A DNA stretch of 64,000 nucleotides from Niabella aurantiaca DSM 17617 (GTDB taxonomy: Bacteria; Bacteroidota; Bacteroidia; Chitinophagales; Chitinophagaceae). Below, one piece after another: positions 44,811-49,351 of this stretch (positions within the stretch are counted from its first letter, which is position 1; every line of letters starts with the position of its first letter). Location: assembly GCF_000374125.1 (NCBI RefSeq), contig NZ_KB893628.1:16910-80909 (forward strand), given 5' to 3'. The notes under the pieces were generated by a model. The model did not search any database and had not been told where the DNA came from. It was given only the letters and a program-made list of their open reading frames with translations. The position numbers and the translations under genes were made by a program.

Positions 44811-46388
44811 CTACTGATCTACCAGCACAGGCACTACATTTTTACGGTGCTTGCTTTGCTGGAACTTTTCTTCAATGATCTTCCGCATCGGCTTGCGCTC
44901 TACCTTGCTTTCCAGCCAGGAAATGATATCCAGGTAGGCAAAGGAGCGGGTCTCAAACCGGTTCTTCTCGAGGTGCTTGACCTTGTCAAGGAAGCGGGCA
45001 AACTCCGGTATCAGCTCCCTGCTGGTAAACCGGAAGGATCCCCTGAAAAAACGGAAGATCTCCTGCTCGATCACTGTCAGGTTCTTCATTTTGGACATAT
45101 AGCGGAAAACGGAGCGGGTCAGCGAATCCATCAGCTCCAGGTTACCCATTTCATAATGTGCCAGTAAATGTACCAGCCGTGCATAACATTGCAGGTCCGT
45201 TCTGAGCCCGGACGAATCATTGATGATCTTTTGCAGGTAATCGATGCTGGTGCCATAATCTCCCGAGAGGAAATACAGCATGGCTATTTTATAAGTGATC
45301 ACCATTACCCGGTGCCGGTCCAGGAATAAGGTATACTCCGTCAGCTTCTCTTCAATAAACGGCACCTCCTTCAACCCGGCGGCGGTTTGCCCGGTAATGG
45401 TAAAGTAGTTGATCTTGGCGCTGGCAATGTACACAAAGGATTGCACCCGGAAGTTTTCATTGCTCTGCACTCTTTTGGTATGGCTGAATTCCTCAAACCG
45501 CTGCAGGTCGATGCTGAATTTTTCGTAATTCCTCAGATCAAAATGCGCGTTCAGCAGATTGTGATACCCCTTGATGAAATGACCGGTTTCCGTCCGTTGC
45601 ATATTGGGCTTTTCATAAAACAGGTCCACCCATTTTTGCACATACCGGTAGTACAGGAGAAAATCCTGACGGATAAACGCAAACCAGGTATAACTTTGAT
45701 AATAATAGAGCCGTTCGTAAAACCCTTCCTGCTGGGCCGATCCCGAGGGCAGGTTCTGCTTAAAGAACTTCTTCACCTTATCTTCTTCCACTTCATTCCG
45801 GGCATGACCATTGGCAATATAAAATCCGTATACCTGCAGCGAAAGGTTCGACAAGCGGGTGACCATGTTCAGTTTGGTATTGACCTCGTTGGACTCTTCT
45901 GCCAATTCGTCCATCCGGCTGACAAAACTGTCCGTCACATTCAGCGCCTCGATGCGTTTTTCCAGTGACAATATCTGCGGAAGAAAGAAGAACTTCTGGT
46001 TGAGTTTGGCCATTTCCTTGACCTTATCGATCACCCGAAGGCTCTGGTAGAACAGCCCCTTCTTATAAAGTATATGCGCTGAATCGAATAATTCATTTAA
46101 TTGAAGATCAAGACTTTCACTGCTTTTCAATAGGCGCAGCCCGGCCAGTATCTCCTTATATAAATGGGATTTCAGATTGGATAGCTGGGGCTTGGTTACA
46201 TCCTTCAGCTTTTTCAGCACCAGCTTTTCATCATATTGCTGCAACTTGTCCAGGGCATCAAACAGCTTGATCACCTTAAGGTCCTCATTACCAGAGCTTC
46301 GTGTAATATAAAGCTTAAAGTGTCGTTTTTCCGACTTTTCCAACGATTTTATTAACTGAAACAGGATATCTCCCGGCTTATTCGGCAT
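44811..46388 (-). CDS. large helical (TPR-like) protein, unrecognised
   Basis: A 525-residue cytosolic protein made of helices throughout, with many paired-helix segments (SLRVIDKVKEMAKLNQ, YGTSIDYLQKIINDSS) suggestive of degenerate TPR repeats. It begins MPNKPGDILFQLIKSLEKSEKRHFKLY, typical of a Bacteroidota family without assigned function. The frame extends to 46490, but ATG 46388 is directly preceded (5 bases) by a minus-strand TAACTTTG promoter box, and upstream residues look unlike the protein. Its 5' end faces the small-RNA array. Confidence 0.65.
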   Translation of the reverse strand: MPNKPGDILFQLIKSLEKSEKRHFKLYITRSSGNEDLKVIKLFDALDKLQQYDEKLVLKKLKDVTKPQLSNLKSHLYKEILAGLRLLKSSESLDLQLNELFDSAHILYKKGLFYQSLRVIDKVKEMAKLNQKFFFLPQILSLEKRIEALNVTDSFVSRMDELAEESNEVNTKLNMVTRLSNLSLQVYGFYIANGHARNEVEEDKVKKFFKQNLPSGSAQQEGFYERLYYYQSYTWFAFIRQDFLLYYRYVQKWVDLFYEKPNMQRTETGHFIKGYHNLLNAHFDLRNYEKFSIDLQRFEEFSHTKRVQSNENFRVQSFVYIASAKINYFTITGQTAAGLKEVPFIEEKLTEYTLFLDRHRVMVITYKIAMLYFLSGDYGTSIDYLQKIINDSSGLRTDLQCYARLVHLLAHYEMGNLELMDSLTRSVFRYMSKMKNLTVIEQEIFRFFRGSFRFTSRELIPEFARFLDKVKHLEKNRFETRSFAYLDIISWLESKVERKPMRKIIEEKFQQSKHRKNVVPVLVDQ

Positions 46389-46393
46389 AGTTA

Positions 46394-46401
46394 CAAAGTT
46401 A
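46394..46401 (-). promoter_or_regulatory. -7 promoter box abutting a start codon
   Basis: Minus-strand TAACTTTG ends 5 bases before ATG 46388, so transcription would start at about the start codon. The longer open frame would require the promoter to lie inside the gene. Confidence 0.5.
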
Positions 46402-46541
46402 AATGCAAACTTTTCAAAAACATTAAAAAGGCCCAAAATACCCTTGGGCATCTCCACGAAATTAAGCTGTAATGCAGTAATAACGGGCACTTTAATGTTT
46501 TTATAACAGGTTAGACATACCAGATTTCATCAATAGTTGGT

Positions 46542-46573
46542 TTGGAGTGCCCTTCTAAAACGTATTATCTTTG
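46542..46573 (+). promoter_or_regulatory. promoter of small-RNA unit 1
   Basis: TTG at 46542-46544 and TATCTTTG at 46566-46573 with a 21-base spacer are a full match to the Bacteroidota -33/-7 consensus. The predicted transcript starts near 46580. Confidence 0.75.
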
Positions 46574-46579
46574 TGTAAC

Positions 46580-46702
46580 AAATGAGGGAATAGGAAAAGA
46601 GAGACAAAAGCTGTAGGCAGCACAACAAAAGAGTTTTTTAAGTTTTTTCATATGGCAAGCAATCGTTAGAGGTCAGTCCGTTTCTACGGAAGGACCTTTT
46701 TT
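46580..46702 (+). ncRNA. putative small RNA, unit 1
   Basis: An RNA of about 123 bases (5' end approximate) from a consensus promoter to an intrinsic terminator. It starts near AATGAGGGAATAGG, has a short hairpin GCTG-TAGG-CAGC at about 46610-46621, a U-rich linker, the mini-ORF ATG GCA AGC AAT CGT TAG (46652-46669) and the terminator hairpin. From promoter box to T-tract it differs from unit 2 at only 3 of about 137 positions. No gene follows on this strand, which argues for a stand-alone RNA rather than an mRNA leader. I do not recognise it as a known family. Confidence 0.65.
46670..46702 (+). terminator. terminator of small-RNA unit 1
   Basis: Outer stem AGGTC/GACCT, a 2x2 internal loop AG/AG, inner stem TCCGT/ACGGA and loop TTCT, followed by six T residues. 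It begins right after the TAG of the mini-ORF. Confidence 0.8.
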
Positions 46703-46779
46703 GTTTTCAGTACATTCTAAATTCAACGGCAAGCTGCTGCTAAACTATTACAATCTATAAAACGGGCTATTTAGGTGTG

Positions 46780-46971
46780 TTCATTAAGAAAAAAAAGAAG
46801 CAACCGTCAGAGGCAATCAAACTTAGAGGTCATCTTCGAGTAAATAAAAACGCTTCCTTATTTACACTGTAATCAAAAACCTGATACCGGTTAATAAAAA
46901 GTTAATTGATTACAGGCAACTAAAATAACAGTATTTTCTGAATTGGGGCTTCTTTTCCCCAATCTTTTTTT
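46780..46971 (+). ncRNA. structured segment ending in an intrinsic terminator
   Basis: Contains GTAAATAA/TTATTTAC (46840-46865, 8-bp stem) and CTGTAATCAA/TTGATTACAG (46867-46876 with 46906-46915, 10-bp stem). The terminator is ATTGGGG/CCCCAAT with seven T residues (46942-46971). Upstream is a degenerate copy of the array core (GGCAATCAAACTTAGAGGTCA, about 46812-46832). No consensus promoter was found, so the 5' end is a guess. Confidence 0.4.
46942..46971 (+). terminator. intrinsic terminator inside the small-RNA region
   Basis: A perfect 7-bp stem ATTGGGG/CCCCAAT with an 8-base loop, then C and seven T residues. Confidence 0.75.
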
Positions 46972-47168
46972 AAACTTTTCGATTTTCTCCATTGTTTGGG
47001 CATTTATTTATACAATTTTCAACGATTTTTTCGTTCTCTTTTAAGCGTTGGATATGCGATCCATTTTCTGCTGAAAGGCTGTATCTACAGTACTTTCAGG
47101 GAAATCAGCAGGTATTGAATATGATAGAACCTGCGGCATATTGTGTTTTTGAATGTGTAAACCCTGTA

Positions 47169-47176
47169 TATCTTTG
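47169..47176 (+). promoter_or_regulatory. -7 box of small-RNA unit 2
   Basis: TATCTTTG, identical to that of unit 1, along with the 60 bases that follow. The nearest upstream TTG (47149-47151) gives a 17-base spacer, shorter than ideal, so this promoter may be weaker. Confidence 0.6.
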
Positions 47177-47182
47177 TGTAAC

Positions 47183-47307
47183 AAATGAGGGAATAGGAAA
47201 AGAGAGACAGAAGCTGTAGGCAGCATAACAAAAGCGTTTTTTAAGTTTTTTCATATGGCAAGCAATCGTTAGAGGTCAGTCCGTTTCTACGGAAGGACCT
47301 TTTTTTT
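47183..47307 (+). ncRNA. putative small RNA, unit 2
   Basis: Nearly identical to unit 1 (three substitutions over about 137 bases including promoter and terminator). It has the same AATGAGGGAATAGG start, GCTG-TAGG-CAGC hairpin, U-rich linker and MASNR mini-ORF (47255-47272). Flanking sequence differs entirely, so the unit was duplicated as a discrete cassette. The 5' end is estimated. Confidence 0.65.
47273..47307 (+). terminator. terminator of small-RNA unit 2
   Basis: The same hairpin as in unit 1 (AGGTC AG TCCGT TTCT ACGGA AG GACCT), followed by eight T residues. Confidence 0.8.
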
Positions 47308-47455
47308 GCACTGTCTTTTATTGCTTCCGGCGGGAAAATAACACCCATGGACTTTTATCCTGTTCTGCCCGTTTCGTAAATGGAAAGATCCCTGTTAAAA
47401 ATATAACCAATCTATGCAAACCGAATAATACCGCGTATTCTGGGTCAGCAATAAA

Positions 47456-47526
47456 AAGCGGATCCCTGTTATATAAGAGATCCGCTTCCTTGTTCATTTT
47501 TAGGCCGAGACAATCGTTAGAGGTCA
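47456..47526 (+). other. hairpin plus degenerate array core
   Basis: A 9-bp perfect stem AAGCGGATC/GATCCGCTT (47456-47464 with 47479-47487) precedes CAATCGTTAGAGGTCA (47511-47526). This core matches units 1-3 but lacks the mini-ORF start and the terminator hairpin. No consensus promoter is visible, so it looks like a decayed or divergent unit. Confidence 0.45.
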
Positions 47527-47740
47527 CAATAGTTTTGTTTCAACGGTTATAGAGCACTAAAATAAGGGATTCTATTAACAATAAATTAACTAACAACTGT
47601 TTTTTTTAAAATTCCGAAATTTTTTGCCTGCTTTTTAATTTATTTTCAATGCTGATCGTTAAGCATCCCCGATTATCTAAACAAATCGCATTGAGAATTA
47701 GACGTTTTGGTTTCAGAGACCCCCTGCAAAAATGGCATCC

Positions 47741-47772
47741 TTGCAAAATGGCATGAATTATGACTATCTTTG
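47741..47772 (+). promoter_or_regulatory. promoter of small-RNA unit 3 with overlapping direct repeat
   Basis: TTG at 47741-47743 and TATCTTTG at 47765-47772 with a 21-base spacer. A direct repeat TGCAAAAATGGCAT (47725-47738) / TGCAAAATGGCAT (47742-47754) overlaps the -33 element. It is absent from units 1 and 2, so it may be a unit-specific operator. Confidence 0.7.
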
Positions 47773-47778
47773 TATTCA

Positions 47779-47856
47779 GAAGTTATTCATTAACTTTTTC
47801 ATATGGCAAGCAATCGTTAGAGGTCGGTCTGTTTCTACAGAAAGACCTTTTTTTTT
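47779..47856 (+). ncRNA. putative small RNA, unit 3 (short form)
   Basis: An RNA of about 78 bases that lacks the 5' hairpin part of units 1 and 2. It keeps the 3' module: TTTTTCATATGGCAAGC, the MASNR mini-ORF (47803-47820) and the terminator. The inner stem reads TCTGT/ACAGA instead of TCCGT/ACGGA, a paired C-G to T-A change that preserves the helix. This supports selection for RNA structure. Confidence 0.65.
47821..47856 (+). terminator. terminator of small-RNA unit 3
   Basis: Outer stem AGGTC/GACCT, internal loop GG/AA, inner stem TCTGT/ACAGA, loop TTCT, then nine T residues. Confidence 0.8.
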
Positions 47857-48070
47857 GGCCGGATAATAATATTGCTAAAACCGCAGAGGCGCTGAAACAT
47901 TGTTTTTCAGGCTTTTATCATCCCGGGGGGCAATCCCACTAAACCTTTGTCATTCAGCGCTCTGTGGCTAAACCAGGCAACTAAAAAAACCGGGAGACCG
48001 TTTTTAACAATCTCCCGGAAAGGAAAGGTATCTATTGAAATGGTTGCCGGAATGTATTATTCAATCAGTA

Positions 48071-49153
48071 TTATTTGGAATTCATCTGTTCGATCAGCTG
48101 GAGCAGTTGTGCTTCAGAAACCTCCTGCAGGTTAAAACTGATCCCCATGTAATTTGTCCCGCTTCCGGGGGCGATCGTCACATCACGCATCTCGGCATAA
48201 AATTTACCATTAACGGTACTCATGGCCAGGAAGGTTCCGTTTGCTCCAACAGGGATGCTGTTTTGATAGCTCAGCAGACCTTCTTTGCCGGGGATGGGGT
48301 TGAAGATGGGGTTGTATAATTTTACGAGCGTATTTACACCAGACACCTTAAAGAACAACTGGGTGGGATCCTGCCCGGAATAGTTATTACCGGTTTTGAT
48401 ATTGAATTTATCCCCGAAATAGCCAAGTACCGTTGTTTTGGGTGCAGCAATATTGTAGAGTGCATCGCAGTTTCTCCAATCGCCCAGGTTATCCAGCGGA
48501 AAATAAGTGGCCGCGGCATTGCCAACTCCAAAGGAGCCGGGTATCTGCGTCCATTCCATTCCCTTTTTAATAGTATAAGCCTGGGTGATGGTGGTGAACA
48601 CATTTTCATGGTTATAGCCGCTGTACTCCACGTTCACCGTTGTATCACCATCCCACATGGGGATCTCGCGGTTGGCACCATTGGCGTTGGCGGCAGGGAG
48701 GGGCACCTGAACATTCGGAGGTTTTTGCTGCGGATTCAATGCAAGCGGCTGTCCGTTCTGCTCTGCGGTAACCAGGGCTTCACCAAATGTTTCGAGTATC
48801 TGCCCGGCATCGGTTACCGGTGGTTTGTCTGCCAGGATCATTTCGCTGGGCTTTATAAAAACGCGGGCACCAATGGTCACATTTCCTGTAACCACACCAC
48901 CACCGGAATTTATAAAAGCATCCGGGCTAAAGGTAATCTTGGTGCCGTTCTGCAGGGCGATGGTAGCGCCGGTGCCGGCATCAACCATAAATTTTTCAAC
49001 AACAGGTTCATGGTCTTTAAAAAAACGAAGCATCTTTTCTACATCTTTCTGATAAGTGCTTTGCGGATCGATCGGTGTATTGTCCTTCCTGCAGGCAAAA
49101 AGAAAAACGGCCAAAGACAATAAAGTCAGGAGCGGAAACATATTCTTTTTCAT
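48071..49153 (-). CDS. secreted lipoprotein, unrecognised family
   Basis: A 360-residue lipoprotein. The leader KKNMFPLLTLLSLAVFLFAC has a lipobox LFAC and the mature part begins CRKDNTPIDPQ. It contains a beta-rich segment TGATIALQNGTKITFSPDAF and NVTIGARVFIKPSEMILAD, which resembles the start of Bacteroidota cell-surface proteins with carboxypeptidase-like or ZU5-like folds. The C-terminal half has no recognised domain. It probably resides in the outer membrane. ATG 49153 matches the leader; ATG 49159 is two codons upstream. Confidence 0.65.
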   Translation of the reverse strand: MKKNMFPLLTLLSLAVFLFACRKDNTPIDPQSTYQKDVEKMLRFFKDHEPVVEKFMVDAGTGATIALQNGTKITFSPDAFINSGGGVVTGNVTIGARVFIKPSEMILADKPPVTDAGQILETFGEALVTAEQNGQPLALNPQQKPPNVQVPLPAANANGANREIPMWDGDTTVNVEYSGYNHENVFTTITQAYTIKKGMEWTQIPGSFGVGNAAATYFPLDNLGDWRNCDALYNIAAPKTTVLGYFGDKFNIKTGNNYSGQDPTQLFFKVSGVNTLVKLYNPIFNPIPGKEGLLSYQNSIPVGANGTFLAMSTVNGKFYAEMRDVTIAPGSGTNYMGISFNLQEVSEAQLLQLIEQMNSK

Positions 49154-49351
49154 AAACATTGTTTTTAAAATTTAAAAAAGAGGGTTCTGCCGGTATATCA
49201 ACCGGCCGGAATAATTGTTACCCGTATGGAAAAAGATCAGATGGCATTTCGGTATGATAATGACCCGGTATCAAATTTGGCCGGTCGGTGAGCACACTGC
49301 CCGGGCGTAGGCCAGGGTTTATGCCTATGCCATAGCCGTCAACTTAAGATG

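Follow-up and report, generated by a model that had tools for sequence, protein, structure and literature searches.

An array in the genome of Niabella aurantiaca DSM 17617, a member of the Chitinophagaceae with a genome of 5.93 Mb, appears from its sequence to encode three similar predicted small RNAs on the plus strand. Their common 3' end is a new, Chitinophagaceae-wide, multicopy small-RNA module, which in Niabella is combined with interleaved predicted antisense RNAs. The array lies in a stretch of 64,000 nucleotides, referred to here as the window, and brings together repeats, a covarying terminator, a near-invariant stretch, promoter-like boxes, and conserved antisense elements with a box and terminator of their own. 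On balance, we consider it probable that the locus holds a trans-acting multicopy sRNA family with three siblings, plus two dedicated sponge RNAs encoded at the same place. The features are as follows.

44811..46490, minus strand: divergent 559-aa gene flanking the array, with a weak TPR-like Pfam hit only
46542..46704, plus strand: unit 1; TTG 46542-46544, 21 nt, TATCTTTG 46566-46573; predicted RNA ~46580-46704; conserved 3' module 46641-46704
46789..46927, minus strand: antisense RNA A; -7-like box TATTTTAG 46920-46927; predicted RNA ~46913-46789; two sites complementary to the units, 46800-46832; ends in a hairpin and U-run
47169..47307, plus strand: unit 2; TATCTTTG 47169-47176; predicted RNA ~47183-47307; module 47244-47307
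47452..47564, minus strand: antisense RNA B; -7-like box TATTTTAG 47557-47564; predicted RNA ~47550-47452; one perfect 16-nt anti-site 47511-47526; terminator hairpin 47456-47487
47741..47855, plus strand: unit 3; TTG-21-TATCTTTG, box 47765-47772; predicted RNA ~47779-47855; module 47792-47855

The array and its 3' module

The three plus-strand repeat units reported in the initial annotation were confirmed in the window sequence. Units 1 and 2 are near-identical, as stated there, with three differences over 137 nt (46566-46702 against 47169-47305, 98% identity), and unit 3 has the 3' module alone in common with them (47795-47856, the last 62 nt, 92%). The promoter-like box TATCTTTG was found in all three units, and the exact arrangement TTG-21-TAnnTTTG, which had been claimed for two of them, is present in the first and the third; in unit 2, TTG precedes the box at spacings of 17 and 25 nt, not 21. 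In each unit, ATG GCA AGC AAT CGT TAG is followed by the terminator without a gap. The gene that comes next (48071-49159) is on the minus strand, and none lies downstream on the plus strand. The predicted RNAs of units 1, 2 and 3 fold more stably than their shuffles, with z values of -2.52, -2.68 and -4.07, respectively. A 15-mer of the module has six matches with up to three mismatches in the window as opposed to 1.02 expected, a number reached in none of 100 shuffles; four of the six are exact, including one at 47511 that was absent from the initial annotation. Judging from these sequence features, we infer that the RNAs of the array are made.

Each unit ends in a module of 64 nt, in which the near-invariant single-stranded stretch UUUUUCAUAURGCAAGCAAUCG is followed by a terminator hairpin. 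Within its core, GGCAAGCAAUCG, each position has the same letter in 90 to 94 of 94 distinct matches to a covariance model that was itself built partly from these rows, apart from the first G, which is found in 88 and is A in the rest. The U-rich stretch and the GUUUCYAC loop also belong to the conserved region. The change from TCCGT/ACGGA to TCTGT/ACAGA, which had been taken as a sign of selection on the structure, proved to be a true compensatory change, and the structure covaries: in an alignment of 46 module copies, of which 45 distinct rows were counted, double changes occur at eight of the ten hairpin pairs and 91.9% of the cells pair, values that were each reached in none of 500 shuffles. 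When the partners were slid against each other in the hairpin alignment, pairing amounted to 62.3% at most. The sequence supports the view of the locus as an array of genes for small RNAs whose 3' structure is under selection. The initial annotation knew of no described RNA family with this design but allowed for an Rfam match; a cmscan with Rfam 15 returned no match at the gathering score in the window. A permissive scan of 46480-47900 (E<=10) gave chance-level hits only, the best with an E value of 1.3, and its list contained no family named FopS.

Antisense RNAs in the spacers

The initial annotation described plus-strand units and missed two conserved, predicted minus-strand RNAs, as well as the use of the module after tRNA, tmRNA and phage genes. 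Both spacers, the one before and the one after unit 2, hold partial module copies in the same sense, which makes the minus strand there complementary to the units. The block of antisense RNA B is kept in all five aligned genomes, the window genome included, with TATTTTAG, a 17-nt anti-site (TGACCTCTAACGATTGT) and a terminator, the stem of which is longer in the window genome than in the others; its fold has a z value of -4.65. Antisense RNA A is likewise kept in five of five aligned genomes, in a long block that contains TATTTTAG and, ahead of a U-run, two anti-sites. Six other Niabella genomes carry a related antisense element, GACCTCTAATTGATTGCCTCT(A/G)ACGATTGC, with GTTAA-N19/20-TACCTTAG upstream and CCGGG..CCCGGATTTTTT downstream, which forms a CCGGG/CCCGG terminator. 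A conserved promoter-like box and a terminator accompany the predicted antisense RNAs, which may be transcribed independently.

Complementarity of the kind that a sponge RNA would need is present as the perfect 16-nt site in antisense RNA B and as a double anti-site (<=3 mismatches) in 15 of the 17 Niabella array loci, a count obtained with a wider pattern after a tighter one had missed antisense RNA A. By eye, 14 of these double sites have a U-run or a CCGGG terminator after them. The exceptions are G013, where the double site has no evident terminator, G007, with one degenerate site, and G016, with none at a locus of 2165 bases. The predicted duplexes of units 1, 2 and 3 with antisense RNA B reach -60.8, -62.5 and -47.6 kcal/mol, and in each case all 200 shuffles pair less strongly. 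Pairing of antisense RNA A with the units stays within the range of the shuffles, for example with unit 1 at -51.4 against a shuffled mean of -38.1 and a lowest value of -55.0; its anti-sites are themselves part of the terminator hairpin predicted for this RNA. We infer that the stretch of the sRNA matched by the anti-sites is its functional part.

Occurrence and genomic context of the module

A BLAST search of 59 genomes gave matches in 32: the module is in all 17 Niabella genomes, including the window genome, and further matches were found in 14 of 19 other Chitinophagaceae genomes and in one of 23 others of the order. This single match outside the family is weak and U-rich, and in genome G017 the match is limited to the promoter-side letters. 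When Bacteroidota genomes were searched with the covariance model, all matches were in Chitinophagaceae: the model matched 72 genomes among 298 of the order and 8 among 396 of the class, and at least 20 Chitinophagaceae genomes had no match. The exact 19-nt core pattern occurs in at least 119 stretches of named genomes; among the matches listed, most are titled as Chitinophagaceae genera, Chitinophagales or plain Bacteroidetes, and a few metagenome bins as Sphingobacteriales, Flavobacterium or Pedobacter.

Some module copies have a promoter-like box 50-140 nt upstream, and others stand behind genes of a different kind. The core lies at a distance of 1-30 nt behind genes for tRNA-Phe, -Trp, -Met and -Cys (L129, L142, L144 and L222), and in the viral contig L124 it begins at position 867, 2 nt after an Rfam tmRNA match (352-865) at which ARAGORN made no gene call. 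The same context of tmRNA and module was seen by eye in L133 and L137. The module also follows phage genes with a CHAP domain (L139) and a WDGH domain (L150) at about 5 nt. The viral set comprised 30 stretches, from which L125, L131 and L135 were dropped as their core lies inside a frame open for 484-625 codons; in the remaining stretches a hairpin is visible by eye. The 60-nt module had no match in the named phage and plasmid collections, and a 201-nt viral stretch had none in the named phage collection. The fourth module copy of the window genome (C19:141010) follows a tRNA-Trp as its 3' trailer and adjoins an endolysin gene; because of this gene and an integrase about 4 kb away, it is placed in a prophage (stretch C19:136000-146000).

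Among the matches listed, 36 of the 119 loci from named genomes have a homologue of the 559-aa gene close to the module, and an sRNA locus adjoining this gene therefore looks ancestral in the Chitinophagaceae. Two sister modules were also identified. Type B (UCUCAUAAGCAGUUAGUUUUGGUUG), with four copies in the window genome (L090, L091, L092 and L094), occurs in 29 of 59 genomes, all of them Chitinophagaceae, and its window-genome copies have a different stretch but the same hairpin loop as the main module. One of them (L090) was seen by eye to follow an Hsp20-like gene. Type C (UUCAUAGGUUAGCAACGG) has three copies in the window genome (L093, L095 and L096) and a different hairpin loop. Type C stands close behind a promoter-like box, and in L096 an ORF that looks ATPase-like by eye comes next on the same strand.

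Candidate targets and interpretation

Starts of the form AUG-AAA-AAA are complementary to the module's U-rich CAU, and SusC start regions were examined as candidate targets, with 30 of the 56 SusC loci of the window genome as a first set and 25 held-out loci thereafter. Based on duplex energies that ignore folding within the partners, on mononucleotide shuffles, and on the longest open frame as the definition of the SusC start, the seed UUUUUUCAUAUGGCAAGCAAUCG favours the 30 SusC starts over 30 downstream SusD starts, with none of 150 shuffled seeds as extreme. In the same set it prefers SusC starts to in-gene controls (0 of 200 shuffles) and to 51 other starts, which may include spurious ORFs (0 of 150). 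On the held-out set, UUUUUUCAUAUGGCAAGCAAUCG beats all 200 shuffles in three comparisons, with SusC starts by themselves, relative to SusD starts and relative to in-gene controls. With shorter seed cores, the SusC-alone effect of the first set is lost in the held-out set (fractions of 0.145 and 0.195) and only the preference over SusD is kept. For the 16 nt to which the antisense RNAs are complementary (GCAAUCGUUAGAGGUC), no preference for SusC starts was seen, as 22.7% of 150 shuffles are at least as good; the type B stretch has a SusC effect in the first set, and the type C stretch has none in either set. Pairing of CAU with AUG may explain part of the SusC signal. The computed preference of the seed for SusC start regions is suggestive, and these are candidate targets.

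Searches for individual targets in the window genome gave little. The 19-nt core with up to three mismatches matched nothing except the four module copies, and CAAGCAATCGTTAG with up to one mismatch yielded no long complementary mRNA target. An 18-nt target pattern had 13 non-module matches as opposed to 6 for the reversed control, and four of the 13 hold an ATG that opens an ORF of at least 196 aa, an outcome that ATGAAAAAA by itself favours. The best single target candidate, L331, lacks a close orthologue in the genus, the best match having 46% identity.

In the favoured explanation, the single-stranded stretch would serve as a base-pairing seed beside a terminator, as in FopS of Bacteroides, and bind start regions of mRNAs, with those of SusC-type transporters as the favoured candidates. 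The antisense RNAs derived from the spacers would pair with GCAAUCGUUAGAGGUC, which includes part of the seed and the 5' arm of the terminator, and would titrate or destroy the siblings in the manner of sponges. Where the module ends mRNAs, tRNAs, a tmRNA or phage transcripts, it could release related 3'-end RNAs or act as a decoy. A further proposal, which we put forward tentatively, is that of a self-contained post-transcriptional circuit in which siblings and dedicated sponges, one of the latter with two sites, alternate by strand and their ratio sets the activity of the transporter-directed seed, with the phage, tRNA and tmRNA modules plugging in as mimics or decoys.

The mini-ORF had been presented as a part of the design of the units, a view that is weakly supported. 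Its frame is intact in all three of them; copies elsewhere have in some cases lost the start or the stop. Translation of MASNR, with a role as leader peptide or stalling signal ahead of the terminator, is very improbable, even though an ATG with any stop at codon 6 is kept, as in the window, in 76 of the 94 distinct covariance-model matches and, among the matches listed, in 67 of 88 distinct named-genome copies. Of the 22 distinct viral copies, only 11 have this combination; the exact MASNR-TAG string occurs in 71 of 94 model matches, 9 of 22 viral and 49 of 88 named-genome copies among the matches listed, where the viral and named-genome sets were chosen by the exact core pattern, so that the core itself is forced. 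The remaining model matches comprise nine non-ATG copies, three with ATG but no stop and six with a changed core; since seven of the nine non-ATG copies keep the stop, the stop is independent of the start. In addition, the letters 5' of the frame (UUUUUCAU) are about as conserved as the frame, and third codon positions hardly change. Because of this upstream conservation and the losses of start and stop, conservation of the module as an RNA element fits its sequence better than conservation as a peptide. The mini-ORF as the conserved feature was judged unlikely, although the counts with any stop exceed those of the exact string, and a leader-peptide attenuator was set aside, as the plus strand of the window has no regulated gene downstream and the start is lost without loss of the stop.

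Two other explanations bear on the conserved stretch and its copies in the spacers. CsrB-type RNAs titrate CsrA, and by analogy the 3' module could be a protein-binding or termination element of many transcripts, with the RNAs of the array titrating that protein. The positions after tRNA genes, the tmRNA match, and CHAP- and WDGH-domain phage genes would be in line with such a role, as would the conservation of the U-rich stretch and the GUUUCYAC loop, and a type B module that shares the loop and differs in the stretch. In other genera, further sense copies of AATCGTTAGAGG between the TAnnTTTG box and the module, found in 25 of 115 upstream regions (shuffled mean 1.32, maximum 6) and at least twice in nine of them, also favour it. 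However, the conserved antisense RNAs of Niabella target this same stretch, which makes most sense if base pairing matters, and we regard protein titration as rather unlikely. The sense copies also bear on the idea that the spacer motifs are not antisense genes but decayed sense copies of an ancestral 5' domain of the sRNA, given that the two-copy motif has a similar layout in those genera, in the sense direction between promoter-like box and module. This we hold to be improbable, as in Niabella the motif is flanked by a conserved box and terminator on the minus strand and, by eye, the plus strand has no terminator with U-run after it. AATCGTTAGAGG was found in antisense in none of the 115 upstream regions of other genera, and the antisense system is therefore shown for Niabella only.

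Among described systems, a trans-acting family with sponges is closest in design to FopS of Bacteroides thetaiotaomicron, as far as the published descriptions go. FopS is reported as a paralogous multicopy sRNA family, one member of which is derived from a 3'-UTR, and as an RNA of 65-70 nt with a seed at its 5' end, conserved within the Bacteroidaceae, which pairs with SusC start regions, has RbpB as a partner and also occurs as a sequence in a phage (PMC11697453). By description, the likeness lies in the multiple copies, the seed with terminator, the phage copy and SusC, here as candidate targets. Units 1 and 2 of Niabella differ from FopS as described in their 60-nt 5' part, a different conserved stretch, the tandem arrays and the interleaved antisense RNAs. 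Bacteroides is not known to have Hfq, and no Hfq over the cut-off was found in any of the 59 genomes. In Caulobacter crescentus, the sponge CrfA is described as inactivating the sibling sRNAs SisA-D and as recovered with Hfq (PMC12559287). The likeness, on that account, is one sponge RNA acting on a whole sibling family, whereas the sponge candidates of Niabella lie inside the sRNA array, the one with two sites in 15 of 17 arrays. CJnc190 of Campylobacter jejuni is described with a cis-encoded antagonist, CJnc180, at the same locus (PMC8687705). It shares with Niabella, by that description, an sRNA with an antagonist encoded antisense at one locus, but forms a single cis pair, whereas the antisense RNAs of Niabella are encoded in spacers and would act in trans on all siblings. 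LhrC is described as a multicopy sRNA of Listeria (PMC4132741). Compared by this description, it resembles the Niabella units in being a multicopy sRNA. We know of no interleaved antisense RNAs for LhrC.

Our literature search returned no relevant description of small RNAs in Chitinophagaceae, Chitinophaga or Niabella, and no relevant paper on sponge RNAs in Bacteroidota. The system is widespread in the Chitinophagaceae and can be tested in cultured Niabella. It would bring a multicopy sRNA family together with its candidate antagonists at one locus of a genome in which no Hfq is recognisable, and it suggests a route by which phages may enter the RNA regulation of the host, by way of lysis, tRNA and tmRNA genes and their 3' ends.
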